Assembly (NCBI GenBank): GCA_016215705.1
Contig: JACRIR010000202.1
Location: 1 to 52,485 of the forward strand
Length of the DNA stretch: 52,485 nucleotides
Direction: 5' to 3'
Source of the DNA: Candidatus Poribacteria bacterium
GTDB taxonomy: Bacteria > Abyssobacteria > SURF-5
Part shown: positions 13,613-42,688 of the stretch, one piece after another
How the letters are laid out: every line of letters begins with the position of its first letter
Position numbering within the stretch: the stretch's first letter is position 1
The notes under the pieces: model-generated
Database searches by the model: none
What the model was told of the DNA's origin: nothing
The model's input: only the letters and a program-made list of their open reading frames with translations
Made by a program: the position numbers and the translations under genes

Positions 13613-13633
13613 GGGCGAACCTTGTGTTCGCAC
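13613..13633. repeat. GGGCGAAC/GTTCGCAC hairpin
   Basis: GCGAAC and GTTCGC arms around CTTGT, preceded by GTAAG. A member of the GTAGGGGC...GCCCCTAC palindrome group with its own inner stem. Confidence 0.65.
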
Positions 13634-13657
13634 GATATGCGATATATTATGAAGCTT

Positions 13658-13679
13658 GGGCAAACACGAGGTTTGTTCC
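13658..13679. repeat. GGGCAAAC/GTTTGTTCC hairpin
   Basis: CAAAC and GTTTG arms around ACGAG, followed by TGTAG. Same plan as 13613-13633 with a different, still paired inner stem. Confidence 0.6.
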
Positions 13680-13847
13680 TGTAGACGCATTTATTCGTGT
13701 TTTTCAGACTATTTCACAAATGACCGCGCCTGAACGGTGGCGCCTGCCCCTAATGATACCGGAGAGGATTTGCTAAAACACCTTTCCAGTGGCCATATTA
13801 GTTTAGCGAAATGACATAAGTGTCTTCGAGATGGAGGACCCCGGGCG

Positions 13848-14504
13848 ATGAAACCCTATCGTATCGTTTTGGCTGATGACCATGCGCTTCTTAGGCAAGG
13901 GATAATCAGAATCGTCAGAGAATTGGAAGACGTCGTCATAGTCGGCGAGACCGGCGATGGTGTTACGCTCCTCGAGCTTGTGAAAAAAACCGTCCCCGAC
14001 ATGGCAATCCTTGACATCTCGATGCCACGCCTCGGCGGCATCGAGGCAGCCCGTGAGATTAGGAACACTTTTCCCGAAATCAAGACCCTAATCCTCACAA
14101 TGCACAAAGAAAAGGAGTACCTTTACCATGCGCTTGCCGCCGGGGTCGCCGGATACCTCCTCAAGGAAGACACTCATACGGAGCTATTTACTGCCATCGA
14201 GCAAATTCGCCGGGGCACAATGTACCTATCACCCTGCTTCCTGAATGAGTTGACCGACGACGTAATAAATACGTGCGGTTCGGACAACGAATCTTGCTCG
14301 GACTGCCTCACCCCGCGCGAACGAGAAGTGCTGAAACACGTGGCCGAAGGCAAATCGAGCAAAGAGATTGCCGACGTTTTATTCATCAGTTCCCGTACAG
14401 TAGAGCATCACCGCGCAAGCATTGCCCGAAGGCTTGGCATAACAAGTCTTGCCGACCTCGTAAAGTATGCAATCCGCAAAGGATACATTGCTGCTCCGGA
14501 CTGA
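13848..14504 (+). CDS. NarL/LuxR-family response regulator (orphan)
   Basis: Two-component transcription regulator of 218 residues. The receiver domain has the acidic pair in VLADDHALLRQ, the phosphoacceptor Asp in AILDISMPRLGG near residue 55, Thr in TLILTMH and Lys in YLLKED. The C-terminal HTH is LTPREREVLKHVAEGKS with SSRTVEHHRASIARRLG, the LuxR DNA-recognition helix. No histidine kinase is adjacent, so its partner is elsewhere. It is divergent from the redox operon and could control it, which is inference from position only. Confidence 0.93.
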   Translation: MKPYRIVLADDHALLRQGIIRIVRELEDVVIVGETGDGVTLLELVKKTVPDMAILDISMPRLGGIEAAREIRNTFPEIKTLILTMHKEKEYLYHALAAGVAGYLLKEDTHTELFTAIEQIRRGTMYLSPCFLNELTDDVINTCGSDNESCSDCLTPREREVLKHVAEGKSSKEIADVLFISSRTVEHHRASIARRLGITSLADLVKYAIRKGYIAAPD

Positions 14505-14529
14505 GAGGCGAAACCGTGTTTTCGCTCTC
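14503..14529 (+). terminator. Possible stem-loop after the response regulator
   Basis: GAGAGGCGAAA and TTTTCGCTCTC pair with one bulge around CCGTG, starting within the stop codon. No clear U-tract follows. Confidence 0.3.
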
Positions 14530-14607
14530 GCAACGGGTACTTCCACCCATAGCGCGCATACTTCCTTTTGAGACTTGCGACTCGCGTTGCTTCTCCGGGT
14601 TCTCACT

Positions 14608-15267
14608 CTAGACGCTTCGGTAGAACTTGCAGAACACCATTCCGTAGGCGGAAGGGACATTATCATCGTACTTGACGCCAGGCTGTGACTCGCCGAAATA
14701 GAAGAGTTCGTCGGGAACCTTTGCTAGTTTCATCTCTCGCTTCAGGCTCGGGGCAACGGAGAGCAAATATGCTTTGCGGATGAACAGATTATTCGGCCCC
14801 GCATGGATAATGAAAAGCGCCGAGGGGTCGACGGCAAGCTGAAAGAGCGCCTCGAGAGCCGACAGTGTGTCGGCCGGCCAGCGTTTCAGATACCTTAGGA
14901 ATATCACGTCGGCCTTCGCATTTTGCGCAACGTCGACGACCTGAGCGAGCGTGTCAGCTTCGTGGTCTGTTATCACCGTAACGGAAGGCAACTCCCTGAA
15001 GGTGCGCTCAACAGCAGACTCGCCGGAAGGGCCCTTTGCGAGAAACGCCGCCCTAAGCGCAGTATTTGCAAACCGCTCATGAAAGCGCGCCCCGAAATCT
15101 ATCACAGGCTCGATTTCATTCTGTCGCTTCAATATCAGCTTCATCGCTGATTTCGGATTTGTCTGAATAAGTTGCTCAACTTCATGAAAGAAGCCCTCGG
15201 CCTTACTCGTGAGTTCCGCTTCCGTGAGAACGTCCTTTTTGCCAGTCAGCTTGTCCCATATTCCCAT
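14608..15267 (-). CDS. Hypothetical protein, 219 residues
   Basis: I do not recognise a family. The protein is soluble, with no signal peptide or membrane segment. It starts MGIWDKLTGKKD, reminiscent of the short amphipathic starts of some bacterial cytosolic proteins. The middle part alternates predicted strand and helix (VTVITDHEADTLAQVV, ADVIFLRYLKRW, ALFIIHAGPNN), which suggests an alpha/beta fold. The start has GGAGG upstream (GAAAGGAGGCTCCACC before the ATG). It is convergent with the response regulator and stands alone. Confidence 0.75.
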   Translation of the reverse strand: MGIWDKLTGKKDVLTEAELTSKAEGFFHEVEQLIQTNPKSAMKLILKRQNEIEPVIDFGARFHERFANTALRAAFLAKGPSGESAVERTFRELPSVTVITDHEADTLAQVVDVAQNAKADVIFLRYLKRWPADTLSALEALFQLAVDPSALFIIHAGPNNLFIRKAYLLSVAPSLKREMKLAKVPDELFYFGESQPGVKYDDNVPSAYGMVFCKFYRSV

Positions 15268-15427
15268 GGTGGAGCCTCCTTTCGAGTAAGAGCTTTGTCA
15301 AACCGCAAATGCGCACAGAACGGAAAGAAAAGAGGGAATGCAAGAAAACCAAGGCATCACAAGGCAGATCATAGAATCGTCGACTATTGAGGATCCCTTG
15401 GCGTTCATTGAGCCGTTGCCGGTTAGT

Positions 15428-16252
15428 CTATTTGACCACCGATAGTAGTTGCTTATAAGAGAACACGGCAAAGAAGACTGCGGTTCCCACCAGAACGATC
15501 ATTGGGCCAGTGGGCGAATCGAGGTAGTAGGAAAGTGCGATGCCGACCAGCACGACTATTTCCGAGATGATGATGCTCTTAAGAATCAGTCCTTTGAATG
15601 ATCGCGACACGAGCTTTGCGGTCGAGGCCGGGATAATCAGGAGCGCGCTCACGAGCACGATGCCGAGGATTTTCAGGCCGAGTACGACCGACACGGCTAA
15701 TATTATGTAGAAAGTGATCTGCAGCGGGTTAACCCTCACTCCGTCGAGATATGCCGTGTCGGCGTCGAGCGCCATCAAGGTTATGTTTTTGTGGTTGTAA
15801 AACAGGAAAACCACGATTAGCGCCGACAGCACTGTAATGACGACGAGGTCGAGCGGCTTGATCGCCAGGATGTTGCCGAATAGAAAACTCACAAGGTCGG
15901 GCTGATAGCCGCTCTTGAAACTGATGAGGACGACCCCGAGCGCCATTCCCGACGTGAAGAGCATGCCGATTATCGCGTCTGAGGATAGGTTCGTCTTCTT
16001 CTCGAGGAAATAGATCGCGAGTGAGAAGACGATGCTGAAAAGAACGGCAGTCGTAAGCGGATGAAAACTGGCGAGAACACCGACCGCGATGCCGGCAAGT
16101 GAGGCGTGCGCGATGCCGTCGGAAAAGAACGACATCTTTCTCATAATGACAAACACGCCCAGCCATGCGAGCAGCCCCGCAAGGACAACTCCCGCGATTA
16201 TCGCTCTCTGCATGAATGGATACTGAAGAATATCGAGCATATCAGTGCTCAT
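15428..16252 (-). CDS. znuB: Zinc/manganese ABC transporter permease (ZnuB family)
   Basis: Inner-membrane permease of a metal-uptake ABC transporter, 274 residues. It has about eight hydrophobic segments and the family signatures KMSFFSDGIAHASLAGIAVG near the N-terminus and ALLIIPASTAKLV in the middle. Last gene of a znuA-znuC-znuB operon. Its start overlaps the end of the ATPase gene by 11 bases. Zinc versus manganese cannot be decided from the permease alone; the His-rich loop of the binding protein favours zinc. Confidence 0.94.
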   Translation of the reverse strand: MSTDMLDILQYPFMQRAIIAGVVLAGLLAWLGVFVIMRKMSFFSDGIAHASLAGIAVGVLASFHPLTTAVLFSIVFSLAIYFLEKKTNLSSDAIIGMLFTSGMALGVVLISFKSGYQPDLVSFLFGNILAIKPLDLVVITVLSALIVVFLFYNHKNITLMALDADTAYLDGVRVNPLQITFYIILAVSVVLGLKILGIVLVSALLIIPASTAKLVSRSFKGLILKSIIISEIVVLVGIALSYYLDSPTGPMIVLVGTAVFFAVFSYKQLLSVVK

Positions 16253-16949
16253 GAGGCTGGAAGAGAATACTTTTGCCGTAGAGTCTTTCCAACACCTCTT
16301 GTGTTATCGCCTCCCTGGGTCTTCCATTGCAAACCAGGTCCTTATTCAGGCACAATATCTGCGTCGCGAACTTATACACCATATTGACCTCGTGAGAGAT
16401 GAGCATGATCGTGAGGTTGTGGGTCTCGTTCAGGTGCTGTATCAATTCGTAGAACGTCATTTCCGCGGCCATGTCGACGCCGCTCGTGGCTTCATCGAGC
16501 AGGAGCAACTTGGGTTCCTTGAGCAGCGCCTTCGCTATGAGCAGCCGCTGCAACTGTCCGCCGGAAAGCTCGCCTATCCTCTTATCCAGGAACGCATTTA
16601 TTCCGACCTCTCGGAGGACTTCCTCGCGCCACTGCCGGTTCGCGACCTTGATGAAACTGAGGAACTCCTTGACCATCAGAGGGAAGGTCTTGTCGAAATC
16701 GAACCTTTGTGGAACGTAGCCGATGTATTTGAGAGCACTCTTCAAGGGGCCGCCGAGAATCTTCACGCACCCTTGATGGGGAATCAGACCGAGTATTGCT
16801 TTGAGAAGCGTCGTCTTGCCGGAGCCGTTCGGCCCGATGATTGCCACAATCTCGCCCGATTTCACGTAGAAATTCAAGCTGTTGAGGATTACGTGGTCAT
16901 TGTATTTGACCGTCAGGTTCTCGATTTCAAGAATCTTGTCATTTCCCAT
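16242..16949 (-). CDS. znuC: Zinc/manganese ABC transporter ATP-binding protein (ZnuC family)
   Basis: ATPase of the metal importer. Walker A is GPNGSGKT, the ABC signature LSGGQLQR, Walker B LLLLDEATSGVD and the switch His in LISHEVN. The frame is open to 17069, but conserved sequence begins at MGNDKILEIENL. The ATG at 16949 overlaps the binding-protein stop (GATGGGAAATGA), so 235 residues are expected and the genes are translationally coupled. Confidence 0.95.
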   Translation of the reverse strand: MGNDKILEIENLTVKYNDHVILNSLNFYVKSGEIVAIIGPNGSGKTTLLKAILGLIPHQGCVKILGGPLKSALKYIGYVPQRFDFDKTFPLMVKEFLSFIKVANRQWREEVLREVGINAFLDKRIGELSGGQLQRLLIAKALLKEPKLLLLDEATSGVDMAAEMTFYELIQHLNETHNLTIMLISHEVNMVYKFATQILCLNKDLVCNGRPREAITQEVLERLYGKSILFQPHEH

Positions 16950-17907
16950 CCGACAGAGCCTCTGCGATGATTTCGGCGTTGTGTTTAAGAAGCTCGATAT
17001 AGCTTTCCCGCCCTTCGGAGCCGCCCTCCGGGTCCAGGACATAGAGTTTGAGTCCCATGTCATTCGCAAGGGCGACTATGGTCTCGGAGGAAAGTTGGGG
17101 TTCGGAAAAAAGCGCCTTTACATTGTTTTCTTGTATTTTCTTCTGCAACTCGGCGAGATAGCGAGGCGTGGGCTGTTTGCCGGGGAACGGCTCGAACGAG
17201 CCCACGATTTCGAGGCCGAACTCCTCAGCATAATAAGGCCATGCATCGTGAAACGTGATTATCTTTTTGTTTGGGAGATTCCGCAAGAGACCATCGATTT
17301 CCTGTTTGGCGGCATCCAACTTCGACTCGTAAGCCTTCATGTTAGCTCGGTAATAGCTTTCATTAGACGGGTCAAGCCGGATTATTTCTTCCGCGACGTT
17401 TCGGGCGACAATTTTCCCGTTGCTGATCGAGAGCCAGTAGTGCGGGTTCACGCCGGCGTGCCTATGAGCCTCGTGCCCGTGGCCCTCTTCCTCAGACACG
17501 CCATGTTCCTCCGCTCCCGCCTCGATCAGACGCACTCCTTTGTCCACGACGACCCTCTTCACGTCCGGCAGAACCTCAACGATGGCATCCGTCCAATCGT
17601 CGAGGCCGTGGCCGATCCTGAACACGATTCTTGCTCCTCGCAGTTGCAGCACCTGCTGGGGTCTCAGGTCGAAGGTATGGGGACTCGCCCCGGGGGGCAG
17701 AATCTCGATCACTTCAATCTTATCGCCGACCACGTTCCTAATAATATCATATAGTGGAAAGATTGTGGCCGCTACCTTCAGCCTGGCCGACGCGGAGGAT
17801 TGCGGCTTTGAGCAGTCCAGACACAAAAACAGCGCAACGACCATTGAAAATATGAGGCAACGCTTTGTTTTGGTTGCCCTTTCGCTTTGCTCCTTTTTAT
17901 TCATCAT
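16939..17907 (-). CDS. znuA: Zinc/manganese-binding periplasmic protein (ZnuA family)
   Basis: Substrate-binding component of the importer, 322 residues. The N-terminus has a positively charged stretch and a hydrophobic core ending LCLDC, so it may be a lipoprotein, although the lipobox is not ideal. Metal ligands expected for the cluster A-I family are present: His in GASPHTFDLRP, His in NPHYWLS, His in ITFHDAWPYY and the acidic residue near LDPEGG. A His/Glu-rich loop (EEHGVSEEEGHGHEAHRH) near residues 130-150 is typical of zinc-specific members. It follows pgi on the same strand after 53 bases. Confidence 0.93.
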   Translation of the reverse strand: MMNKKEQSERATKTKRCLIFSMVVALFLCLDCSKPQSSASARLKVAATIFPLYDIIRNVVGDKIEVIEILPPGASPHTFDLRPQQVLQLRGARIVFRIGHGLDDWTDAIVEVLPDVKRVVVDKGVRLIEAGAEEHGVSEEEGHGHEAHRHAGVNPHYWLSISNGKIVARNVAEEIIRLDPSNESYYRANMKAYESKLDAAKQEIDGLLRNLPNKKIITFHDAWPYYAEEFGLEIVGSFEPFPGKQPTPRYLAELQKKIQENNVKALFSEPQLSSETIVALANDMGLKLYVLDPEGGSEGRESYIELLKHNAEIIAEALSDGK

Positions 17908-17960
17908 TCATCGCTCTTCACTTATGCTTTTGCCCGCCTGCCCTTTTGCGTTTCGTTTCT

Positions 17961-19388
17961 TCAAGGGACCGTCCGTCTTGTTCGTGCACTGCTCTGTTCG
18001 ACATCATCCTTATACTTCTCGTATCCCTTTCGCCCCATCATGCCGCATGCATACTTCTTCCCCTGTTCGACGCCCGGTTGATCGAATGGGTTTATGTTGT
18101 AAAGGGCGCCTGCAAAAGCGGTCTGGACTTCATACATATAGATCAATTGACCTAGAGTGTGCGGGTTAAGCGCCGGCAGGACTATGGCGCAATTGGGCCG
18201 TTCGTTCTTTGCAAGCGCCAGAGCGCTCGATTGCTGTTCTGCCTTTATGAGTTCGCTGAGGCTGCGACCACCGAGATAAGCTATCCCTTCCATATCCGGA
18301 AACGCACGAGGGATTCTGGTTTCTTTCGGATACTTGTCAAGCCCGATGAACGTTAGGACTTTATCGAACGGTCCTTCCATATATAGTTGGAGCTGCGAAT
18401 GTTGATCCGTGGCGCCAAGCGCTTTCACGGGCGTCTGGCCCGTGTTGACGCGCCTGCCGTCGAGAGCCGTTTCTTTCCCGAGACTCTCGGCCCACAACTG
18501 GCGATACCAGTCGGCGAAATCACGCAGCCGATGGACATAGGGCATCATGACCGAAATCTTCTTGTCCTTGAGCGTGTCGAGGAGATAGTGGAGCAGAGCA
18601 TTGAGCGCAGCCGGATTCTTCCTCGGGTCATCCGCCTGGCAGCACATGTCCATATCGGCGGCCCCCTGCAGCAAACGCCTTATGTTTATGCCCGAGACCG
18701 CTGCCGACAAGAGGCCCACAGGCGTAAGAACCGAGAAGCGGCCGCCGACGCCGTCCGGCACAATGAATGAGGGATAATTTTCAGCCTCGACGATCTTTCT
18801 TAAATGGCCTTTCGACTTGTCAGTTGTGGCGACAATATGGCGGCAAAGCGCATTCTTTCCGACGGCGCGCATGAGCCACGCGCGCGCAATAAGGAAATTG
18901 GCCATTGTCTCCGCCGTATCGCCCGACTTCGTTATGACGTTGAAGACTGTCCTGCGCGGGTTGAGCGCTTCCAGGAGCGACGTCGTCCAGTCCGGGTCCA
19001 CATTGTCGAGAAAAAACATGCGGGGACGCCCGCCCCGCGCCTCCTGAGAGAGGAGATTATATTCCGGATGGTTGAGCGCCGAGTGGAGCATGATGTTTCC
19101 GAGAGCAGACCCCCCGATTCCGATGACGACAAAGTTCTCAATGTTACCGGGCAGGCTCCGCGCATATTTCTCGATCTCGCGCACCCACTCCTTCTGATAC
19201 GGCAAGTTCATGAACGCGAGCCCACCTTCCGCCCGCTCTTTCTTGAGACGCCACGATATTCCCTGCATCCTCGGAATCTCAGCATCTAACTCGGCCTGAG
19301 AAATCCCATGAGCCGGACCAACTGCATCCGCCATCAGGTCCGTATAATCCAACCATATCCTGTTCTTGGTATCATTTGCCTTAGCCAT
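17961..19388 (-). CDS. pgi: Glucose-6-phosphate isomerase
   Basis: Interconverts glucose-6-phosphate and fructose-6-phosphate. Family segments are VVIGIGGSALGNIMLHSAL, FNVITKSGDTAETMANF for the sugar phosphate, GGRFSVLTPVGL and GALYNINPFDQPGVEQGK. The start is the ATG at 19388 behind CAGGAGAGGG, giving 475 residues; the frame is open further upstream but without family similarity. The length suits the shorter bacterial forms. It provides the hexose phosphate that GlmM-linked amino-sugar synthesis starts from. Confidence 0.96.
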   Translation of the reverse strand: MAKANDTKNRIWLDYTDLMADAVGPAHGISQAELDAEIPRMQGISWRLKKERAEGGLAFMNLPYQKEWVREIEKYARSLPGNIENFVVIGIGGSALGNIMLHSALNHPEYNLLSQEARGGRPRMFFLDNVDPDWTTSLLEALNPRRTVFNVITKSGDTAETMANFLIARAWLMRAVGKNALCRHIVATTDKSKGHLRKIVEAENYPSFIVPDGVGGRFSVLTPVGLLSAAVSGINIRRLLQGAADMDMCCQADDPRKNPAALNALLHYLLDTLKDKKISVMMPYVHRLRDFADWYRQLWAESLGKETALDGRRVNTGQTPVKALGATDQHSQLQLYMEGPFDKVLTFIGLDKYPKETRIPRAFPDMEGIAYLGGRSLSELIKAEQQSSALALAKNERPNCAIVLPALNPHTLGQLIYMYEVQTAFAGALYNINPFDQPGVEQGKKYACGMMGRKGYEKYKDDVEQSSARTRRTVP

Positions 19389-19641
19389 AAGAGCCCTCTC
19401 CTGAAGGATTGTGCAAATCAACCACGAATTCTGCCGGATAATTATGTCACTTCCAACGACCTCTCGCGATTCATGAACCAACCGGGTAATATCGCCTTGC
19501 GGAGACGCGGAGCGCCGCGCCCGCACAGCCAGTAATGTGACAGCGTTGTATCGGATAATACCATTTTGAAAAAAAGAAAGTCAAAGGGTGTGAGACCTGG
19601 TGAGCGCAGAGGCCAGCGCCGCAAACCCGGAAACCACAGAC

Positions 19642-19752
19642 CTAGTGTGCCGTCAATACAAAATTTGCGGGTATTGGCGCTTGGTTCTTCGTAGGGGCAC
19701 GGCGCGCCGTGCCCCTACAGATACCAACAAAATTAACTTGACTTGATACTAG
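19642..19752. mobile_element. MITE-like element, type A, copy 1
   Basis: 111 bases bounded by CTAG. Left end CTAGTGTGCCGTCAA, right end TTGACTTGATACTAG, partly complementary. The centre is a perfect 28-base palindrome (19691-19718) with arms GTAGGGGCACGGCG and its complement. Copy 2 is 42580-42688. It shares its right CTAG with the next element. No coding capacity. Confidence 0.75.
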
Positions 19753-19880
19753 TGTAGTGTCTCTAACGCTTCTCTACATTGATCTTCGGGGACAGTCCCG
19801 ATTCTACGGCGCAAAGCACCCGTAAATCTGGGACGGTCCCCTTCGCAGCGCTTCAAGTTATTTCTGAGACACTACACTAG
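19749..19880. mobile_element. MITE-like element, type B, copy 1
   Basis: 132 bases with perfect 15-base terminal inverted repeats, CTAGTGTAGTGTCTC and GAGACACTACACTAG. The interior is itself a long imperfect hairpin around GGGGACAGTCCC and GGGACGGTCCCC. Copy 2 at 30654-30786 is highly similar along its whole length. CTAG ends fit IS630-type transposition, which targets TA within CTAG; that link is inference. Confidence 0.85.
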
Positions 19881-19987
19881 GGACTGCAAGCAATTAGACA
19901 CGTGCGGCGGATTCTTGGTATAATTCATCTTCAAATGCAATCACCGCATTGAGTGGCGCGAGAGCAATTGCCGGGGAACAACCGAGA

Positions 19988-20773: not shown

Positions 20774-20823
20774 TATCTCCAGCGCGGCATAGCTGCGTCC
20801 GAGTAGCTGTCATTGTAAGGTCG

Positions 20824-20868
20824 CGCTTATTCGGGGACACCATGCGGCATGGTGTCCCCGAATAAGCG
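20824..20868. repeat. GGGGACACCATG hairpin with 22-base arms
   Basis: Perfect 22-base arms (20824-20845 and 20847-20868) around a single G. The outer arm is CGCTTATTC and the inner arm GGGGACACCATGC. A relative of the GGGGACACGATG family with a compensated base change in the inner stem. It lies between mlaE and mlaF. Confidence 0.85.
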
Positions 20869-20933
20869 CCGGTCTGCGCCGAGATGAGCCGAAGCAGAGT
20901 TATGTGCGCGCGATCATATCTCGGCAGGTATTC

Positions 20934-20957
20934 GTAGGGGCGCAATTCATTGCGCCC
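20934..20957. repeat. GTAGGGGC palindrome (GGGCGCAAT/ATTGCGCCC)
   Basis: Nine-base arms around TC, preceded by GTAG. A GTAGGGGC-group member with a GCAAT inner stem. Confidence 0.7.
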
Positions 20958-21001
20958 GAATGAGATGAGTTGAACCTTTGGTCTCTTCGTGGTGACTATC
21001 C

Positions 21002-21775: not shown

Positions 21776-21800
21776 GCGAAAGGAACAAGGCGAAAGGGGA

Positions 21801-21833
21801 AATCCCCTTCTTTCCCCCTTTGCAAAGGGGGAT
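21801..21833. repeat. CCCCCTTTGCAAAGGGGG palindrome
   Basis: Palindromic core with a CCCC/GGGG outer arm between mlaF and mlaD. It is flanked by short GGCGAAAGG-type direct repeats on both sides (about 21773-21800 and, on the opposite strand, 21975-22015). Confidence 0.7.
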
Positions 21834-22027
21834 AAAATAGACGAGGTTGCGAAGAAAAGCAAGTGAAAAGAATCGCGCAAAGCGCGGAAGAAAAGGGCTC
21901 AACAGGGGCTATGATCGGAGAGGCAAAACCAATGGGTTGGTTTATGGGAAAGGCCGTACAAGAATGATTTTTGTCTTTCCCTTTCGCCTTTTCCCTTTCG
22001 CCTTTTGCCTTCTCTTAGGAGGTTAAC

Positions 22028-24381: not shown

Positions 24382-24420
24382 AGAGTTGCACAAGAGGGGA
24401 TTGGAATGGAAGAACATGTG

Positions 24421-24461
24421 GAAAATAGGGGACACGATGTCGCATCGTGTCCCCTATTTTC
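24421..24461. repeat. GGGGACACGATG hairpin (AAAATA outer arm)
   Basis: Nineteen-base perfect arms (24421-24439 and 24443-24461) around TCG. The outer arm is GAAAATA. It lies downstream of the convergent aminotransferase gene. Confidence 0.85.
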
Positions 24462-24518
24462 CCAACGATCTCTCTGCAGATGGGAAAAGAGGGCCAGGCC
24501 CTAAGAACCTATTTTCCG

Positions 24519-25818: not shown

Positions 25819-28116
25819 ATGCAAAGCTCAGCAATGCGTCAGAGGCTCACTCCGATACTAATGGTAGTTCTTCTCTGTGTCTCCGCTCTTGTCTTCTTTT
25901 ATAGAGTAGTCTTCTTCCACAGGTCTTTTCTGCCCGGCCTTGTTGTTGCCCAAGGCGTGACAGGCTCGCCACCTATGGCAAAGAATCCGATTGTCATTAA
26001 GGACTACCCGTATTTGGATGCGGAAGGAGCCGCCTACGTTGACGCGCCTTCAACCATGTTTGCAAGCTCGTTGTATCACCAATGGAGACTTCCCTTATGG
26101 AATCCTCATGTCGCCATGGGCGCCCCGTTCCTCGCAGATTTACAGTCGGCTCATTTCTATCCGTTGAAGATTCCTCTTTTCATTCATCCGACGCCATTCA
26201 TGTGGGACCTTTTCTTCGTCATTCGCATCGTGTTTGGCGGGATTTTCACGTACTGCTTCTGCCGCATGTGGAACATCAGCAGAGCCGGCTCTCTGGCCGC
26301 TTCCTTCATCTTCATGTATTGCGGCAACGCCGTGTTGTACATTCATATGAATCGCTTGAGCGCCGAGGTCATGCTTCCATTCGTTCTTGTGTTCACAGAA
26401 CGCCTGGCTCGTAGTGTCACTCTCCGAAACGCCGTGCTTCTCGCATTAGTTTTTGGAGTCATGCAGCTTGGGGGCGCCGGCCCCCAGTCGGCGTTTGCTC
26501 TGACCCTTTTCGCAACCGCTTATTTTTTGTTTCGCGCCACCACAGCAGCGAGTTCGCGCAAGGGCGTGGGCGCCGCTTTAGGGTATTACGCGCTTGCGGG
26601 GCTGGTCGGGCTGCTGATCTCGCTGCCAACCATTGTGCCGTTTATCGAATTCGTCCGCCTTTCTTTTCACACCCATCATGATACGGGCCTTGTGTCAGTG
26701 CCGCCGACCGAATCGATTTTGTTTTTCGTCCCGTTCTTTCTCGGCGAACACAGTTTTGTCATTACCTACATAGGTGTGATTGCGCCTACGTTGGCCCTAA
26801 CCGCCTTGATGGCCGGTCGCGACAGGAAACTGATTTATTTTCTCTGGGGGTTCATTGTCTTTTATCTTGCCCGGACATTCGGAGTTCCCGGAACAAACTG
26901 GATCGAGTCGCTGCCCCTATTCAAGCAAACATTCTTTCCCAAGTATTTTCATCCGCCTTTCATATTCAGCCTGGCTGTTTGCGCGGCAGTCGGTTTTGAT
27001 TTTGCCCTCATGGGACAAGAGAGGCGGTGGTCTCGCTTGTGGGCTCTGGCGCCTGTGTCGATATTCCTCGTTGCCTTCTACCGGACTTACAGAGGACCAA
27101 TCGGTCAGATGGGAAAGACCAGCCAGGTGGCTACGCAACTGGGTCTCTCTTTCCTCATTATCTTTGTCCTCGCATTGATCCTGGCACTCTGTCGAAGCGA
27201 AAGAATACAATACAGGATAAGGGCGAGTCTCCTTTGCTTGGCCGTGTTCGGGGAGATGTTTTTCTATACGCTGCCCCTCGACTATCCCCGTCGCGCTAAC
27301 CCCTTCGACCAAGCCCCCTACATCCGCTTCCTGGGGCAAGATCATGCGTCTTTCCGTGTCTTCAGCCTGCAAGGGGTGTTGCCGCCGAACTATTCAATGG
27401 CATTCGGCCTCTCCGACATTGGGGCCAACAACGGGATTTTCATCTCCCAGTACATTGAGCTGATGCGCGCGGCAATCAACCCCGTGAGCGGCTATGGGAT
27501 ACCGGCAAATGCCGGAACGCCGAACATCATCAGTCCGCTGCTCAATCTCTTCAATGTGAAGTATCTGATATCAAGGTCCTACCTTAGCCTGCCGCCTTCA
27601 CGGTTCCGCCTCGTTTACGACAATGAGGTGAAGATTTACGAGAATGCTGAGTGCATGCCGAGAGCCTTCGTCATATATCAATGGGAAGAGATCAAGGACG
27701 GCGCGGAGACTCTTCGTCGAATGATTTCCGGCGCATTTGACATGAGAGAATCCGTGTTTGTCGAGGAACAGCCTCTCGATGGGGGAAAGCCGAATGGAAA
27801 GACGGCGACCACTTCGACTCCGGCGCCGGAAATTGTGCGCTACGCGGCCAATGAAGTGGTGATAAAGGCCTCTGTCACACGAAACTCTCTACTCGTGCTG
27901 ACCGATAGTTTTTATCCGGGTTGGAAAGCGACTGTAGACGGTCAGAGGACAAGAATCATACGGGCGGATTATCTCTTCCGGGCCGTGTATCTGACTCCCG
28001 GGGAGCACACGGTCCGGTTTGTTTACCGGCCGATGAGCTTTTGGCTGTCTCTCATAATCAGCGCGGTCACAGCCATCGGCATTGTTGGCCTTCTTCTAAA
28101 GCGGAAATCCAGTTGA
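25819..28116 (+). CDS. YfhO-family multi-pass membrane protein
   Basis: Large integral membrane protein of 765 residues with a GT-C-like layout: many hydrophobic helices to about residue 500, then a soluble C-terminal part and a final membrane helix. The C-terminal block VLTDSFYPGWKATVDG followed by YLFRAVYLTPGEHTVRFVYRP is the hallmark of the YfhO family, some of which act in glycosylation of cell-wall polymers. The donor is presumably a polyprenyl-linked sugar. No strong ribosome site precedes the ATG; a second Met four codons later is possible. Confidence 0.9.
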   Translation: MQSSAMRQRLTPILMVVLLCVSALVFFYRVVFFHRSFLPGLVVAQGVTGSPPMAKNPIVIKDYPYLDAEGAAYVDAPSTMFASSLYHQWRLPLWNPHVAMGAPFLADLQSAHFYPLKIPLFIHPTPFMWDLFFVIRIVFGGIFTYCFCRMWNISRAGSLAASFIFMYCGNAVLYIHMNRLSAEVMLPFVLVFTERLARSVTLRNAVLLALVFGVMQLGGAGPQSAFALTLFATAYFLFRATTAASSRKGVGAALGYYALAGLVGLLISLPTIVPFIEFVRLSFHTHHDTGLVSVPPTESILFFVPFFLGEHSFVITYIGVIAPTLALTALMAGRDRKLIYFLWGFIVFYLARTFGVPGTNWIESLPLFKQTFFPKYFHPPFIFSLAVCAAVGFDFALMGQERRWSRLWALAPVSIFLVAFYRTYRGPIGQMGKTSQVATQLGLSFLIIFVLALILALCRSERIQYRIRASLLCLAVFGEMFFYTLPLDYPRRANPFDQAPYIRFLGQDHASFRVFSLQGVLPPNYSMAFGLSDIGANNGIFISQYIELMRAAINPVSGYGIPANAGTPNIISPLLNLFNVKYLISRSYLSLPPSRFRLVYDNEVKIYENAECMPRAFVIYQWEEIKDGAETLRRMISGAFDMRESVFVEEQPLDGGKPNGKTATTSTPAPEIVRYAANEVVIKASVTRNSLLVLTDSFYPGWKATVDGQRTRIIRADYLFRAVYLTPGEHTVRFVYRPMSFWLSLIISAVTAIGIVGLLLKRKSS

Positions 28117-28163
28117 CAAGAAAATAGGGGACACGATGTCGCATCGTGTCCCCTATTTTCTTG
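28117..28163. repeat. GGGGACACGATG hairpin (CAAGAAAATA outer arm)
   Basis: Twenty-two-base perfect arms (28117-28138 and 28142-28163) around TCG, starting at the YfhO stop. It is followed by a partial second right arm, GCGTGTCCCCTATTCTTG. It could also serve as a bidirectional terminator. Confidence 0.85.
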
Positions 28164-28239
28164 TGCGTGTCCCCTATTCTTGCTGAAATGCCAACATCGA
28201 GGAATCTTGCGTTGGTGAATAAACTCCTGAAATGCGGCT

Positions 28240-30621: not shown

Positions 30622-30649
30622 GTAAGAGCGACTCGCGAGTCGCCGCTAC
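30622..30649. repeat. GCGACTCGCGAGTCGC hairpin
   Basis: GTAAGAGCGACT pairs with AGTCGCCGCTAC around CGCG, with two mismatches. Same plan as the repeat inside nnrD (7247-7275). Confidence 0.7.
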
Positions 30650-34365: not shown

Positions 34366-34514
34366 ACCGAGCAACTGCGGGGCCTGATCCGGCGCCCCCG
34401 AAAGCTTTTTTCTCTCTTATCCCTTATTTCTCCTGGAGACCCCGCACCATGCGCGCTGAAACGGCTCTCTCAGCAGTATTCATGGGGGCTGCAATGTGAG
34501 AGTCGCGCCGGTCA

Positions 34515-35156: not shown

Positions 35157-35158
35157 GA

Positions 35159-36448: not shown

Positions 36449-37873
36449 ATGGCGGCAGTCCACAGAATTCTTCTTGTCGTTCCACCGTTTCCGGCAGCGG
36501 AACGATATGGCAAGGGGATCAAAGACCTCGCTGTCACCATGCCTCCGATGGGACTGCTTTATGTTGCGGCGTATCTCGAAAAACATGGGTATGAAGTCTC
36601 GATTCTTGACTGTGAGCTGGAGGGCCTCAATCTCGCAAACGCAATTGGCAAAATCAAGGAGGCCCGCCCCGACCTCGTGGGAATGACGTGTCTGACCCCG
36701 AACTTCAGACGGTGCAATGCGCTCACGTCGTCCATCAAGAAAGAGATAGGCGTGCCAGTGGTCTACGGCGGCGCTCACCCGACACTTTTGCCCGAGGGAA
36801 CCCTTCGCAATTCGGAGGTCGATTATATTGTTATCGGTGAGGGTGAGGTCACTTTTCTCGAGCTCCTCAACGCTCTCAACCATGACGCATCTCCGGCGCG
36901 GCTGTCCGAGATAGACGGGCTTGCCTATCGCGAGAATGGCGACATCAAAGTCAATCCCGACCGGCAAGTTATCCAGGATATCAATGCCTTGCCGCTACCT
37001 GCGCGTCATCTCATCCGGCTTGAACGATATCGCCCCGGACCGCAGCATTATAAGGAACTTCCCTTTACCACGATGATTACCTCCAGGGGATGTCCGTACC
37101 GGTGCATATTTTGTTGCACAAACAAGATATGGAAACGCAGGTATCGCCAAAGAACCGTCCCGAATGTCATCGAAGAAATCAAGTTTCTTCAAAAGGAATA
37201 CGGAATCAGGGAGATTGGATTCTGGGATGACCTATGGGGACTTAAAGACAAGTGGATCATTGAGTTCTGCGACACTGTGGAAAGGGAACATCTGAAGTTT
37301 TCCTGGTCCTGTGAGTTGAGAGTCGACACTGCCGACTTTTCAATCCTCCAGAGAATGAAGAGGGCCGGATGCTGGTGCATTTTCTATGGAGCGGAATCGC
37401 TTCATCAGGAATTGCTCAACAACATTCAGAAGGACGTCAAGGTCGAAGACATTATCACGACCTTACAGAACACAAAGAAAGCAGGGATCGAGATTCGCGC
37501 GAATTTTATTCTGGGGCTTCCCGGGGAAACACCCGAAATGGCGCGCAACATGATCAAGATGGTGAATGAGATGGACCCCGACTACGTGAAATACAACATC
37601 TTTACGCCGCTGCCCGGCTCGAGAAGCTATGAAATGGCCACCTCGGGAGAATGGGGCGAGTTTACCGCAGATTACGACCGACTGACCGGCTATTTCCCCA
37701 CGTTCAGGCCATTTGGCTACGAGAGTCTGGATCAGTTGCACGAGATGCGACAGGCGGCCCATAAGTCGTTCTATTTCCGTCCCCGATACATACTTAGGAA
37801 GCTGAGGAGCATTGACAATTGGAGCAGGCTCAGGAGTTACACAAAGGCCGCGCTCGCAATTATGAAATCATGA
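36449..37873 (+). CDS. B12-binding domain radical SAM protein
   Basis: 474 residues. The N-terminal cobalamin-binding-like domain (about 1-140) has MPPMGLLYVAAYLEKHGYEV and VVYGGAHPTLLPE. The radical SAM core begins TTMITSRGCPYRCIFCC, giving the CX3CX2C cluster ligands near residues 216-223. The remainder has ILGLPGETPEMARNMI and FTPLPGS, usual for this group. Members include methyltransferases and ring-forming enzymes on lipids and pigments, so the substrate cannot be assigned. Placement beside GT2 and WecD-like genes suggests a lipid or glycan substrate. The ATG has GAGG upstream. Confidence 0.9.
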   Translation: MAAVHRILLVVPPFPAAERYGKGIKDLAVTMPPMGLLYVAAYLEKHGYEVSILDCELEGLNLANAIGKIKEARPDLVGMTCLTPNFRRCNALTSSIKKEIGVPVVYGGAHPTLLPEGTLRNSEVDYIVIGEGEVTFLELLNALNHDASPARLSEIDGLAYRENGDIKVNPDRQVIQDINALPLPARHLIRLERYRPGPQHYKELPFTTMITSRGCPYRCIFCCTNKIWKRRYRQRTVPNVIEEIKFLQKEYGIREIGFWDDLWGLKDKWIIEFCDTVEREHLKFSWSCELRVDTADFSILQRMKRAGCWCIFYGAESLHQELLNNIQKDVKVEDIITTLQNTKKAGIEIRANFILGLPGETPEMARNMIKMVNEMDPDYVKYNIFTPLPGSRSYEMATSGEWGEFTADYDRLTGYFPTFRPFGYESLDQLHEMRQAAHKSFYFRPRYILRKLRSIDNWSRLRSYTKAALAIMKS

Positions 37874-37910
37874 TAAGCCACGTGTCGGTTTCTCAGGATA
37901 CATCTTCGCC

Positions 37911-38870
37911 ATGAATTCGAGCAGAGAACACAGAATTTCGGTAATATGCCCTGCTCGCAATGAGGAGGGAAATCTTCCGGAGTTGATGGGAGAATTCCGG
38001 AAGCTGTTCAGTTCCCTCGGTTACGAATATGAAGTGGTTGTGGTGGACGATGCAAGCACGGATGGCACGCCTCAAGCGCTGGAGAAGCTCAAGAAGGAAT
38101 ACAAGTTTCTCAAGACCGGCCGAAACAGGGTGAGGGCGGGGAAGGCAGGAGGCATCGTGACGGGTTTAGGACTCGCGTCGGGCGATATCGTCGTCATCTT
38201 CGATGCCGATCTTCAGTATCTTCCTGAAGATATTCCGTCGCTTGTCCAGGCGGTTATTGAGGATGGAAAGGACATCGTTTCAGGCTGGCGACAAGGTCTC
38301 TATGAGAAGAGCGCCTTGGCAAAGGTCTACAACTGGCTGCTAAGAGCGCTCTTTGATTCTCCGCTCCATGACAGTGGAGCGACTCTCGCCCTTCGGCGCG
38401 AAGTGATAGATCGGATGGCGCTCCATGAAGAGTGGCATCGCTTCATTATTCCATTCGCGTTGGCTAACGGGTACACGGTGGGAGAGCGGAAGATACGCCT
38501 ATATCCAAGGCGACACGGCCAATCCAACTACAGGAGCAAACGAAGACTTCTGATCGGACTTCTCGATCTTATTTCGGTCAAGATGTTCCTGACATTTGGA
38601 AGGAAACCGATGCTCTATTTCGGCAACGTCGGTATCGTGCTTCTCGTCGCCGGAACGTTCTTCGCCGTCCTCTATGCAATAGATAAATTGACTCCGCAGA
38701 TATTCATACCCTGGCGACTGGGCATTACGCCCACCACATTCCTAATCATATCCGGCCTCTTTTTCATCTTTGGCGGATTTATGGGAGAAATGCTGCTCGA
38801 CCTGAAAATCCTGCTTGAAAGAATCTTGCGGGAGTCGGAAAAGAGGAAAAGCGATGCCGGCAAATCTTGA
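37911..38870 (+). CDS. GT2-family glycosyltransferase, DPM1/ArnC-like, with C-terminal TM segments
   Basis: 319 residues. The GT-A fold begins ISVICPARNEEGNLPELM, with VVVVDDAST and the metal-binding DXD motif as VIFDADLQYLP. Two C-terminal membrane segments (about 235-255 and 270-295) match polyprenyl-phosphate sugar synthases. It probably makes the lipid-linked sugar used by the GT-C-like proteins of this region. The downstream acetyltransferase start lies within its last 17 bases. Confidence 0.92.
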   Translation: MNSSREHRISVICPARNEEGNLPELMGEFRKLFSSLGYEYEVVVVDDASTDGTPQALEKLKKEYKFLKTGRNRVRAGKAGGIVTGLGLASGDIVVIFDADLQYLPEDIPSLVQAVIEDGKDIVSGWRQGLYEKSALAKVYNWLLRALFDSPLHDSGATLALRREVIDRMALHEEWHRFIIPFALANGYTVGERKIRLYPRRHGQSNYRSKRRLLIGLLDLISVKMFLTFGRKPMLYFGNVGIVLLVAGTFFAVLYAIDKLTPQIFIPWRLGITPTTFLIISGLFFIFGGFMGEMLLDLKILLERILRESEKRKSDAGKS

Positions 38871-39756
38871 AGAAATCGAATCACTCGTGGGTCAATCCTC
38901 CAGCGGCAGAGGAAGAGAAGCGCTTATGAAGAGGATAGCCCAGGACCCCTCCTCTCCTCTCCTCTACCGCGAAAACGATACCTTGGTCGGAATACTCGTT
39001 TTTGAAGAGGCCCCATGGGAAAGCCGGATACTCGAGAGGAAAGTGGCCAAGCTCTCGTTCATCAGAGGCGACAAACGGCTCTCGTATGACGCGCTAGTGA
39101 GTGCCGCAAGGAATCTCCTCGCTCAACTCGACGACAGAATGATGGAGGGCGGGTTCAAGATGATATCCGTCCGCGTTTCGGAGAGGAGCGCCGGCCTGAT
39201 TCATGCGCTCGAGCAAAACGGATTTCGTTTCATCGAGGTCCTCTTGACTTTCCGGCACGACCTCAAGGACCTGGATGACTTCGGGGACAGCCATTTTATT
39301 CGCGCTTCAAACAAAGGCGACATCGAGGAAGTCTGCGCCGTCGCTTTCAACAGTTTCTCTTTTAGCCGCTTCCATTCTGATCCGCTGATCGCACCCGCCC
39401 AGGCCAATCTCTCTCGCGCCGAATGGGTGAGAAAGGCCTGCGAGGGATCGGCAGATGAAGTATTCGTTGCCGTCGAGGATAACACGATAGCAGGTTTTAT
39501 CACTTGCCGGATTCTGTCCAATGGCGGGAATGACGCGCGAGGTATAATCGATCTTACTGCGGTGCTTCCGCAGTTTCGCGGGAGAGGAATCGGCAGCAGC
39601 CTCGTAAAGCGGGCTCAGCTCTATTTCAGGGGTAAGGCCGAGGCGGTCTCCGTCGGGACACAATCCAAGAATATCCCTTCCATCGGCCTTTACCAGAAAC
39701 TGGGTTTTCGTCCTGTTTCGTCCGAGGTCACATTGCACAAGCACTATTCTCAGTAG
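38854..39756 (+). CDS. GNAT N-acetyltransferase, WecD/RffC-like
   Basis: 300 residues from the ATG at 38854 (AGAGGA upstream), overlapping the GT2 gene by 17 bases. The N-terminal part (EEAPWESRILERKVAKLSF, then LEQNGFRFIEVLLTFRHDL) resembles the first domain of the TDP-fucosamine acetyltransferase WecD. The C-terminal GNAT domain has the acetyl-CoA loop LPQFRGRGIGSSLVKRA and SIGLYQKLGFRPV. Such enzymes acetylate amino-sugars made by DegT aminotransferases. One is encoded 190 bases downstream, which supports this reading. Confidence 0.87.
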   Translation: MPANLEEIESLVGQSSSGRGREALMKRIAQDPSSPLLYRENDTLVGILVFEEAPWESRILERKVAKLSFIRGDKRLSYDALVSAARNLLAQLDDRMMEGGFKMISVRVSERSAGLIHALEQNGFRFIEVLLTFRHDLKDLDDFGDSHFIRASNKGDIEEVCAVAFNSFSFSRFHSDPLIAPAQANLSRAEWVRKACEGSADEVFVAVEDNTIAGFITCRILSNGGNDARGIIDLTAVLPQFRGRGIGSSLVKRAQLYFRGKAEAVSVGTQSKNIPSIGLYQKLGFRPVSSEVTLHKHYSQ

Positions 39757-39834
39757 CGCCCGACCCCGGCACGCCGGCGTCATTCCAGGTTGCCGACCGC
39801 GCCCACGGCATGGTTGGCTGTGAAAGGAATCCCC

Positions 39835-39877
39835 CTTAATTCGGGGACACGATGTCGCATCGTGTCCCCGAATTAAG
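39835..39877. repeat. GGGGACACGATG hairpin (CTTAATTC outer arm)
   Basis: Twenty-base perfect arms (39835-39854 and 39858-39877) around TCG. The outer arm is CTTAATTC. Located between the acetyltransferase and the aminotransferase. Confidence 0.85.
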
Positions 39878-39943
39878 AGAAACGGTCGCCGGTTGCTTTG
39901 CGAAAATTGACCTTCAACCCGAAACTCTTTATTAGGAGGAAAG

Positions 39944-41068
39944 ATGAACATTCCGTTCAACAAGCCGGATATACGACAGGAGGAAATCGAGTCAGTGGTC
40001 GAGGTTCTCAAGAGCGGCTGGCTCATCCAGGGCAAATACTCGGCCCAATTCGAGGAGGAGTTCTGTAAGTTCGCCGCTTGTCGCCATGCCGCACTCGTCT
40101 CCACGTGTACGGCAGGGCTGCACCTCTCGCTCATGGCAATGGACGTGCGCGCGGGCGACGAGATTATTGTGCCGGCACAGACTCATGCGGCCACTGCTCA
40201 CGTAGTCGAGCTGATGGGCGCCACGCCGGTTTTTGTGGACGTGGACAAGCATACCGCTAATACCACCGCCGACCGCATCTCGGCGGCGATTACGAAGAAG
40301 ACCCGGGGTGTCATGGTTGTGCATATGTCGGGGATCGCGTGTGAGATGGACGACATCATGTCGGTGGCGGAATCGAAACGACTTTTCGTGATTGAGGACT
40401 GCGCCCATGCGTTGGGGACCTTCTATAAAGGCAAACATGCCGGAAACTTCGGCGTTTCTGGCTGCTTCTCTTTTTATCCAACCAAACATATTACGACGGG
40501 CGAAGGCGGCATGGCCATCACAAACGACGAGAAAGTATTCAGTGCGATAAAGATAACCAGGGCATTCGGCATAGATACACCGCCCGAACTGAGGGCCAAA
40601 CCGGGCGTATACGATGTCAGAAAGCTGGGCAACAACTACCGCCTGACCGATTTCCAGGCCGCTTTCGGTCTGCATCAGCTCCGAAGGTTCCAGACCGGCA
40701 ACCTTGCACACAGGAAAAGAATAGCAAGGAAGTATATCGGGCTGCTTGATGCCTGCCGCGACGAAGTGGCCTTCAATGAATTCATGGAAGATTGCTCTTA
40801 CTTCTTCTTTCCCATTTACATAAAGAACAAGGATAGAGATCAGATTATGCTGTTCTTGAAAGAAAAAGGCGTAGGGGTCACCGTTCACTATGCCACGCCT
40901 GTTCCTCTAATGTCCTACTACAGGAACAAGTACAACCTGAAGGAGGGAATGTTCCCCAACGCCGAGTACGTCGCGAGAAAGCAGATATCGCTTCCAATGC
41001 AGCCCACCCTGCAGGACAACGAAATCGAATACATCGTCGCAATGCTGAAGGAAAAAATCTATGGGTAA
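39944..41068 (+). CDS. DegT/DnrJ/EryC1-family sugar aminotransferase
   Basis: 374 residues with a strong AGGAGGAAAG ribosome site. Family markers: MNIPFNKPDIRQEEIESV, HAALVSTCTAGLHLSL, DEIIVPAQTHAATAHVVELMG, FVIEDCAHALGTFYKGKHAG and the catalytic Lys in SFYPTKHITTGEGGMAI. The acceptor is probably a nucleotide-linked 4-keto or 3-keto sugar. The downstream epimerase overlaps it by eight bases, and the WecD-like acetyltransferase lies upstream, giving a short amino-sugar cassette. Confidence 0.94.
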   Translation: MNIPFNKPDIRQEEIESVVEVLKSGWLIQGKYSAQFEEEFCKFAACRHAALVSTCTAGLHLSLMAMDVRAGDEIIVPAQTHAATAHVVELMGATPVFVDVDKHTANTTADRISAAITKKTRGVMVVHMSGIACEMDDIMSVAESKRLFVIEDCAHALGTFYKGKHAGNFGVSGCFSFYPTKHITTGEGGMAITNDEKVFSAIKITRAFGIDTPPELRAKPGVYDVRKLGNNYRLTDFQAAFGLHQLRRFQTGNLAHRKRIARKYIGLLDACRDEVAFNEFMEDCSYFFFPIYIKNKDRDQIMLFLKEKGVGVTVHYATPVPLMSYYRNKYNLKEGMFPNAEYVARKQISLPMQPTLQDNEIEYIVAMLKEKIYG

Positions 41069-42047
41069 GAAGTGCGTTTTCGTCAATGGCGGCTCAGGAT
41101 TTATCGGATGTTTCATCTCAATCGGATTGGCCGCGCGGGGATGCCGCGTCATCGTCATCGACAAGATGGAGCAACTCGCCCAGATGCGAGAAAGCCTCTA
41201 CGAGGAATTTATCAAGGCCCGGCTTGCCTTACTGAAGAAACACGATGTCAACATTGTAACTATGGACATAGAGAACTCCGACAAATACATCAAGCTCATC
41301 GAGGAGTATGATCCCTCTTGCATTTACTGCATGAACGCCGTCACAAACGTCAAATTCTGCAATGTCAACCCGAGTATCGCCATCACGGAGAACATCGCCC
41401 GCGTGGAGAACATTCTTGACTACATCAGGAAGACCAACCCGAACATACGTATTGTCTTCGCCTCCTCTTCTTCGGCATACGGCAACTTCACCAAAGACAA
41501 GATGGGTGAATCCGAGCCGCTTAAGCCGGTGAATATCTACGGCTTCTCCAAGAGAGCCAGTGAGGAGTTGATTCAGCTTTACAACAGGATTTATGGTATT
41601 CCCTACACGATCATTCGCCCGTCGGCGCCTTACGGCCCCCTTCGTGTAAATCAGACAATTACGCAAATCATCATCGAAAGAGCTCTGCGAAACGAGACAA
41701 TCCAGGTGAACGGAGACGGCGAGGCCCGTCTGGATTTCACCTGCGTTTCTGACACAGCCGAGGGATTTGTTCTCGCCGGCGTCGAGGAAACCGGTCGCAA
41801 CGAGATATTTAACATTGCATGTGGAGAAGCCCGCTCCATAAACGATCTCTTGAGAATCACCCGGAAATATTTTCCGACACTCAAGGTGGAATACAAGGAA
41901 CAGGACAAGACTGCCGCCGAACGAGGAACGCTCGATATCGCGAAGGCGAAACAACTACTCAAGTATGCCCCGCAGTTCCCGCTCGAGACAGGTTATCCCA
42001 AATACATCGAGTGGTACCTGAACAAGGATTACACAAAAATCGACTAG
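41061..42047 (+). CDS. NAD-dependent epimerase/dehydratase (extended SDR)
   Basis: 328 residues. Rossmann motif VNGGSGFIGCFIS at the N-terminus, VFASSSSAYGNF with the catalytic Ser region, and the YX3K pair as YGFSKRASEEL. ARLDFTCVSDTAEGF is typical of nucleotide-sugar epimerases. It likely makes or converts the sugar handled by the aminotransferase whose gene it overlaps. Precise product unknown. Confidence 0.93.
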   Translation: MGKKCVFVNGGSGFIGCFISIGLAARGCRVIVIDKMEQLAQMRESLYEEFIKARLALLKKHDVNIVTMDIENSDKYIKLIEEYDPSCIYCMNAVTNVKFCNVNPSIAITENIARVENILDYIRKTNPNIRIVFASSSSAYGNFTKDKMGESEPLKPVNIYGFSKRASEELIQLYNRIYGIPYTIIRPSAPYGPLRVNQTITQIIIERALRNETIQVNGDGEARLDFTCVSDTAEGFVLAGVEETGRNEIFNIACGEARSINDLLRITRKYFPTLKVEYKEQDKTAAERGTLDIAKAKQLLKYAPQFPLETGYPKYIEWYLNKDYTKID

Positions 42048-42139
42048 GGATAGAGCCGATCTTCCCTTCTCTAGGAGGAGGGGCGCTGATTTCCCCTTTT
42101 GACACAGCGCGGCACAACCGCAACCAAGCAGCACGAATC

Positions 42140-42163
42140 GGGCGCGATGAATCGCGCCCCTAC
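42140..42163. repeat. GGGCGCGAT/ATCGCGCCCCTAC palindrome
   Basis: Nine-base arms around GA, followed by CTAC. A GTAGGGGC-group member with inner stem GCGAT. Confidence 0.7.
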
Positions 42164-42187
42164 AGCGTTTCTTTGCTCGTGCTCCGG

Positions 42188-42227
42188 GAAAATCAGGGAC
42201 ACGACGGAGCATCATGTCCCCGATTTT
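42188..42227. repeat. Degenerate GGGGACACGATG hairpin
   Basis: GAAAATCAGGGACACGACG and CATCATGTCCCCGATTTTC pair with a few mismatches around GAG. The outer arm AAAATC is still paired. Confidence 0.7.
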
Positions 42228-42579
42228 CTTGATTCGTGCCTGCAGGGGCGCAATTCGTTAAGCCTTTGTAATCTACATGCGTGGGGCGTACGGAAATCAC
42301 GACAGAAATTCGTGATTTCGAGTGTGAGTAGTAAAAGAAGGAAGGCGGATTTTCCCATCATCTTCTCGACCATTTTCGTTGACATATCATGCCTTTTTGT
42401 GTTAAATTAAATATGATGACGCCGGTTGGCAAAAGCGGGAACATGTGCCATCCGGCTGTATTTGTGTCAGAAGGCAATGAGGGTCTAACATTGACATCCG
42501 ACCTGAAGCGGGTGGAGTCGCTCGCCTCCCACTTGAATCTCCATCATGTCAAACGTCAAGGTTTGGCCCCGATTAGAGA

Positions 42580-42688
42580 CTAGTGTCATGTCACACTTGA
42601 GCCTGCAAGTGTGAGCGTATGGTTTTGTAGGGGCACGGCGCGCCGTGCCCCTACGGGAACCGACAAAACAGAGTTGACAGAACACTAG
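42580..42688. mobile_element. MITE-like element, type A, copy 2
   Basis: 109 bases, ends CTAGTGTCATGTCAC and GTTGACAGAACACTAG, with the same perfect 28-base GC palindrome (42627-42654) as copy 1 at 19642-19752. It ends only 21 bases before the ahbC start, so it may carry or displace that gene's promoter. Confidence 0.75.

Follow-up and report, generated by a model that had tools for sequence, protein, structure and literature searches.

The palindromes dispersed over contig JACRIR010000202.1 of a Candidatus Poribacteria bacterium (assembly GCA_016215705.1; Abyssobacteria, SURF-5 in the GTDB lineage), a stretch of 52,485 nucleotides that was analysed as a whole and is called the window here, are very probably repetitive extragenic palindromic (REP) elements of the GTAG superfamily, of the long or 'double foot' types that belong to group 4 of the REP-associated tyrosine transposases (RAYTs), also classified as TnpA_REP subclass 2.4. 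On this reading each inner stem is characteristic of a RAYT lineage, and one family, family A, was multiplied as the core of miniature inverted-repeat transposable elements (MITEs), in which cores were exchanged at a fixed site. The analysis revealed a common anatomy, covariation of the stems, linkage to RAYT genes in both sister genera and in other phyla, nesting of the hairpins in MITEs, and differing cores at homologous sites.

All ten palindromic stretches named in the first-pass annotation were present in the window, and they were confirmed to be real and far above chance. A plain hairpin scan recovered 15 strong hairpins from the window, whereas three Markov-shuffled windows yielded none. 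The palindromes follow a plan in which GTAG precedes GGGC and five inner bases, a loop of 2-4 nucleotides, the complement and, sometimes, a terminal CTAC (the 'double foot'). A covariance model of this plan (GTAG foot, 9-bp stem, loop of 2-4), built partly from the window copies, matched eight of the ten with E values from 1e-5 to 0.009. In 390 kb of the host genome, at least eight of the nine stem pairs were formed after 56 of 68 GTAGGGGC sites, compared to 0.24 expected with the 3' side shuffled; these sites were selected on the 5' 8-mer alone and provide an unbiased test, whereas the covariation set described below includes copies picked as hairpins. Genome-wide, there were 53 exact GTAGGGGC-N4..34-GCCCCTAC sites and none of the reversed pattern. 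The model matched at least 138 hairpins in the host genome (G000), at least 103 in one sister genus (G001) and at least 27 in another (G002); these counts are lower bounds, with 150 candidates scored per genome.

Among 27 distinct copies, the covariation score of the nine stem pairs was 0.571, compared to 0.154 for shuffled copies and at most 0.10 for slid structures, and 54 cells had changed on both sides, compared to 17 after shuffling. The first-pass annotation had named a lack of excess covariation and a scarcity of further copies as results that would speak against its proposal, and neither was observed. The palindromes also have the features of GTAG-type REPs: the tetranucleotide lies at the 5' foot of a short hairpin, the elements are 20-40 bp long, numerous and mostly extragenic (nine of the ten window sites lie outside Pfam-supported genes and one lies inside nnrD), and they occur both as single units and as opposite-orientation doublets of the bacterial interspersed mosaic element (BIME) type, including the window pair 13609/13658.

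The inner stems fell into discrete types, defined by the inner 5-mers ACGGC (family A), GCAAT (B1), GCGAT (B2), GACCC (C), GACTC (D), GCAGC (E) and GGTTC (F), with two further types, G, which has GAAC(C), and J, which is longer and bulged. Family A is a 28-bp perfect palindrome with about 40 genome copies, represented in the window by double-foot REPs at 19691..19718 and 42627..42654 (unstranded, both E 1.5e-5). Family B1 (GCAAT-TC-ATTGC) is found at 20934..20957 (+, E 1.2e-5) and B2 (GCGAT-TC-ATCGC) at 42140..42163 (-, E 1.7e-5), each with a GTAG foot on one side only; elsewhere the two stand head to head in BIME-like doublets with a spacer of about 21 nt (L022, L024, L034 and L035). Family D occurs at 30622..30649 (-, GACTC-GC-GAGTC, E 2e-4) and, with one stem mismatch and in frame within nnrD, at 7247..7275 (+, E 2.9e-4). 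The family C copy at 6579..6603 (-, E 7e-5) has a GCAG foot and the stem GGGCGACCC-GGT-GGGTCGCCC, and the family G copy at 13609..13634 (+, E 0.009) has a GTAA foot and a stem ending in GAAC-CTTGT-GTTC. Its inverted partner at 13658..13679 (-) was recognised from the sequence; it is decayed and went undetected by the covariance model in the window. The palindrome at 52321..52352 (unstranded, E 0.65) is a doubtful member, with a family E-like stem (GCAGC-AT-GCTGC) and AAGAAA/TTTCTT feet in place of GTAG/CTAC.

These results modify the initial description of the group. Eight of the ten listed copies were detected at E<0.01, the other two being decayed (13658) or doubtful (52321), and the copy that had been placed at 13613 actually begins at 13609. 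The constant outer arms described earlier exist as a common GTAG plan, but both perfect arms are present only at 19691 and 42627. These two copies are identical to each other, so the statement that the inner stem differs each time does not hold. Rather than one family varying copy by copy, the different inner stems mostly represent different REP families from different RAYT lineages.

RAYT genes bearing the same hairpins were found in both sister genera. In G002, GTAGGGGC hairpins flank two Y1 genes, one of which has a GGGCACGGCATGCCGTGCCCCTAC hairpin within the reading frame, directly after MPNHIHG. The G001 RAYT contains two in-frame inverted REPs, GTAGGGGCGAACCTTGTGTTCGCCC and its inverse, with an inner stem and loop identical to those of the window copy at 13609. 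This gene was split with stops in tblastn, but a pseudogene was rejected, since profile search and translation gave an intact frame of 268 codons.

A search with the G002 protein identified 195 relatives in named genomes. The 80 retained came from Chloroflexi, Cyanobacteria, Proteobacteria, Bacteroidetes, Brocadia, Nitrospirae and Atribacteria, among other groups. In 58 of 82 RAYT loci, as well as in G001, an in-frame GTAG hairpin was located behind the HUH motif and no more than 80 codons from it. Behind HUH, GTAG hairpins had a density of 3.97 per kb, which fell to 0.06 in the N-terminal half of these genes and to 0.13 at distances above 800 bases. The sense GTAG was in codon phase 0 in 37 cases, in phase 1 in 17 and never in phase 2, where it would place TAG in frame; since the phase varies, it is the DNA hairpin and not one peptide that is the common element. 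For 30 RAYT loci with hairpins both within and beside the gene, the best agreement over the 14 bases after GTAG averaged 11.5, compared to 6.9 with shuffled partners (maximum 8.5 in 2000 shuffles), and RAYT core distance was correlated with REP distance (Mantel r 0.24, p 0.0015).

Exact 20-bp cores of four of the families (A, B2, C and F) were present at distant RAYT genes. The family A core was found within and upstream of a soil deltaproteobacterial RAYT gene (L078); copies identical to the window hairpin at 42140 (B2) lay within and beside a termite-gut proteobacterial RAYT (L117); the inner stem of the 6579 REP (C) recurred in a REP located within a Ca. Brocadia RAYT gene (L058); and the family F core lay beside L080. 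In the RAYT alignment N-H-x-H-G and W-Q-R were invariant and YI..NP was present in most rows, which corresponds to the group 4 motifs NH[IFV]H, WQ and YIxNNP. Hairpins flank the Y1 HUH gene, as expected of this group, in G002 and in many phyla, though no such gene was found in the host genome, and in-frame REPs lie between HuH and Y of the transposase gene. The in-frame hairpins of five RAYT genes from several phyla (L101, L105, L107, L123 and L129) have GTAGAGAC or GTAGGGAC feet instead of GTAGGGGC, which indicates that lineages differ in the basal stem as well, with its pairing retained.

Most copies of family A were found to be carried by MITEs. By their flanks, 25 of 38 copies clustered as MITE-type, and most of these show both arms of a CTAG-bounded MITE; the other 13 did not join this cluster, and 11 of these stood alone in unrelated contexts. 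Two such elements, both bounded by CTAG and with the family A REP mid-element, are present in the window: a MITE-2 copy of about 111 bp at 19642..19752 (+) and a MITE-1 copy of 109 bp at 42580..42688 (-), whose homologues elsewhere have core E or J. As in MITEs derived from insertion sequences (IS), the elements have terminal inverted repeats (CTAGTGTNNTGTCA), are about 109-111 bp long and non-coding, and occur in many copies (25 aligned). All 28 exact CTAGTRTNNTGTCA end motifs listed in the host genome coincide with MITE ends, and among these 28 no autonomous partner with such ends, which is likewise expected of IS-derived MITEs, was found. The MITEs were restricted to the host genome; no copies were found in G001 or G002, which still carry hairpins. 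Many copies of family A have thus probably multiplied as MITE passengers, a point on which the first-pass annotation needs correction.

Comparison of homologous MITEs revealed different cores at the same site. Core A was present in most, core E in L208/L242, L209, L211/L267, L167 and L221, and core J in L206/L262, L264 and L263. On either side of the core, the flanks of L209 align in register with those of the MITE-1 copy in the window at about 87% identity, while the cores are E and A, respectively. No MITE copy lacking a hairpin was found, which disfavours independent insertions into empty MITEs; three different cores at one site suggest, on sequence comparison, that the core was exchanged in place. 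On the flank tree, cores A and E were found in both main MITE clades (split support 1.000), so that at least one core moved independently of the flanks or arose twice through the same six changes, for which core J is too different. Parsimony gave seven core changes, compared to a shuffled mean of 6.8; core type thus does not follow flank phylogeny, although the tree is weak. One copy (L155:981, contig C193) is a chimaera, with the left flank of another repeat (TGTCCCGTAATTGT) and the right half of MITE-1 joined exactly at a family A REP, a junction suggestive of recombination at the hairpin. The inner 20 nt of 18 A-core copies were free of changes, compared to 26 changes in 540 sites over the adjacent 30 flanking nucleotides (Fisher p 1.6e-6). 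Invariant cores amid diverging flanks provide the best support for a fold that is maintained or regenerated.

In the simplest reading, recognition across the whole class rests on the outer arm of these elements, and the inner stem is specific to the lineage. The RAYT would recognise the GTAG foot and the GGGC basal stem in single-stranded DNA, and the inner stem, with a sequence typical of each RAYT lineage, would have to stay paired for the hairpin to form. Visits of several RAYTs to one genome could then leave several families that share outer arms and differ in their inner stems. By analogy with other REPs, cleavage of the hairpins would occur at the foot, and their spread would proceed via single-stranded DNA; the action on single-stranded hairpins is known from the work on those REPs in the available text of two reports (PMC8266576, PMC6006769). 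Family A would have multiplied by transposition of the CTAG-bounded MITEs of which it is the passenger core, and the most likely route of core swapping would be recombination, or template switching, between hairpins with the 8-nt outer arms in common.

Several observations weigh against this interpretation. No match to a group 4 RAYT was found in the host assembly, which is 92% complete, even with a 13-protein profile. The host genome does contain three Y1_Tnp genes, none of which has window-type hairpins; their ends are TTATTCCGGGGACATAATACC on two tandem copies (contig C28, L018) and CTTGAAATTTGAATTAAGG on the third (L016, contig C225). The GGGGACA or CTTGAAATTTGAATTAAGG repeats on their flanks led to the rejection of these genes as the cognate RAYT. 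The tree of MITE flanks is a small one, with weak support within its two main clades. Only two base pairs and the loop distinguish core A from core E, and some of these changes could be compensatory mutations, although core J is too different for this. The invariance of the hairpins in the MITE copies could result partly from recent expansion. The suggestion that the fold is selected or regenerated is upheld by the strong covariation and by the unchanged cores, with recent expansion as a possible contributor. The comparison with REP-like elements of RAYT (Y1) transposases, offered initially as the closest analogue, was borne out as more than an analogy by every testable feature except a RAYT in the host.

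The association with MITEs raises the alternative that the palindromes are simply hairpins at the centre of MITEs that an ordinary DDE transposase has spread, their likeness to REPs being incidental. The MITE-type flanks of 25 of the 38 family A copies and the location of all 28 listed CTAGTRTNNTGTCA sites at MITE ends are consistent with such an origin. The solo copies and the RAYT linkage disfavour this alternative, and it is very unlikely: 13 of the 38 copies lie outside the cluster, 11 alone in unrelated contexts; families B, C and D occur in other contexts; the identical 28-mer is present in the RAYT gene of a soil deltaproteobacterium; and G001 and G002 have hairpins without MITEs. Transcribed regulatory hairpins, that is, terminators or RNA elements selected for their fold, are the least probable explanation, bordering on the implausible. 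Most window copies are intergenic and the hairpins are strong and GC-rich, as this would require, but no T-run follows the listed window hairpins, no Rfam family matches them, and near-identical copies are located in MITEs and even in coding frames.

Quasi-palindrome correction, in which template switching at replicating hairpins keeps the arms complementary with no role for a transposase, would act on any palindrome. It accounts for cores that are perfect while their flanks diverge, for cores swapped in place and for the chimaera joined at the REP; it leaves unexplained the constant GTAGGGGC arms, the linkage to RAYTs across phyla and the in-frame RAYT copies, and is unlikely on its own. It may well act together with the spread of RAYT-dependent REPs proposed here.

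The GTAG superfamily was defined by Di Nocera et al. (2013, PMC3733652), including REPs inside genes, and the same authors noted that REPtrons can be lost. The window elements resemble that superfamily as 20-40-bp GTAG-tagged palindromes with many copies, opposite-orientation doublets and some copies within genes; that superfamily, for which the paper gives 24 families, likewise has several families per genome with their own REPtrons, and the likeness is one of anatomy. Rickettsia palindromic elements (described in PMC3733652) are also palindromic repeats in frame in protein genes, but they are CGTC-tagged and have no RAYT association. REPs of Escherichia coli, Stenotrophomonas and Marinomonas, in the available text of Corneloup et al. 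(2021, PMC8266576), similarly have a conserved motif before the hairpin and a transposase that co-evolved with the REP; they belong to other RAYT groups, and the biochemistry was carried out on those and not on group 4.

Subclass 2.4, which equals RAYT group 4, has long and 'double foot' REPs and in-frame REPs in tnpA_REP between HuH and Y, according to the available text of Quentin et al. (2018, PMC6006769). The likeness extends to the GTAG foot, the GC-rich basal stem, the REPs beside and within tnpA_REP, the protein motifs and the occurrence in many phyla. As far as that text describes the subclass, the present case differs in that the cognate gene was not found in the host assembly and in that the most frequent family sits in MITEs as their core and has been swapped in place. 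The window palindromes are thus new members of subclass 2.4 REPs in a little-sampled lineage, which was represented at phylum rank by only three genomes. A literature search for the string GTAGGGGCG gave only unrelated papers among the matches listed. In-gene hairpins have already been published for this subclass, to which we add their match to the flanking hairpins of the same gene; the finding that most family A copies are cores of MITEs of about 110 bp, with three cores at one site, is new.

The copy at 7247 lies in nnrD (6748..7761, +), which encodes NAD(P)H-hydrate dehydratase. Carb_kinase (PF01256) was matched in two stretches of this open reading frame, which is intact, and alignment with Thermotoga TM0922 (2ax3) was broken at query 145/203, target 362/373. 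Because the target advances just from 362 to 373 across query 145-203, about 47 codons (approximately residues 146-202), including the REP, represent an in-frame insert.

Other repeats were also noted in the window. A second palindrome family, GGGGACACGATG...CATCGTGTCCCC, has a conserved centre and outer arms that vary yet remain complementary; it is located at 20823-20869, 24411-24471, 28116-28164, 39835-39877, 42188-42228 and 47328-47372. This family fits the GGGGWSAS motif of the ends of terminal inverted repeats associated with tyrosine transposases (TIRYTs; PMC3733652), and the TTATTCCGGGGACATAATACC ends of the two tandem host Y1 genes are related to it. An inverted repeat at 52241-52301 (CTTGAAATTTGAATTAACGG / CCTTTAATTCAAATTTCAAG) is matched by the ends of the third Y1 gene in the host and so looks like a non-autonomous relic of that gene. 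The repeat ACTAGTGTAGTGTCTCTAACGCTTCTYTACATT is shared to the right of 19752 and of 30649, after both REPs, and is also present beside L146 (contig C135). A further short repeat type, the CCCCCTTTGCAAAGGGGG palindromes, occurs at 4175-4206, 6695-6714 and 21808-21837.

These observations bear on how specificity changes jointly in REP hairpins and RAYT transposases. A possible, if tentative, answer is that REP hairpins act as exchangeable cassettes, in which the hairpin at a fixed site, either a MITE core or the RAYT gene's own loop, may be overwritten by another that shares only the GTAGGGGC/GCCCCTAC arms, through transposase-guided or replication-coupled conversion. Such exchange, if true, would explain why inner stems change between lineages yet are always paired, as well as the match between a RAYT gene, its flanks and the dispersed REPs. 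Hitch-hiking on MITEs can inflate REP copy numbers, and if cores are replaced as units, the co-evolution of REPs with their transposases could run by hairpin conversion and not by slow compensatory mutation.

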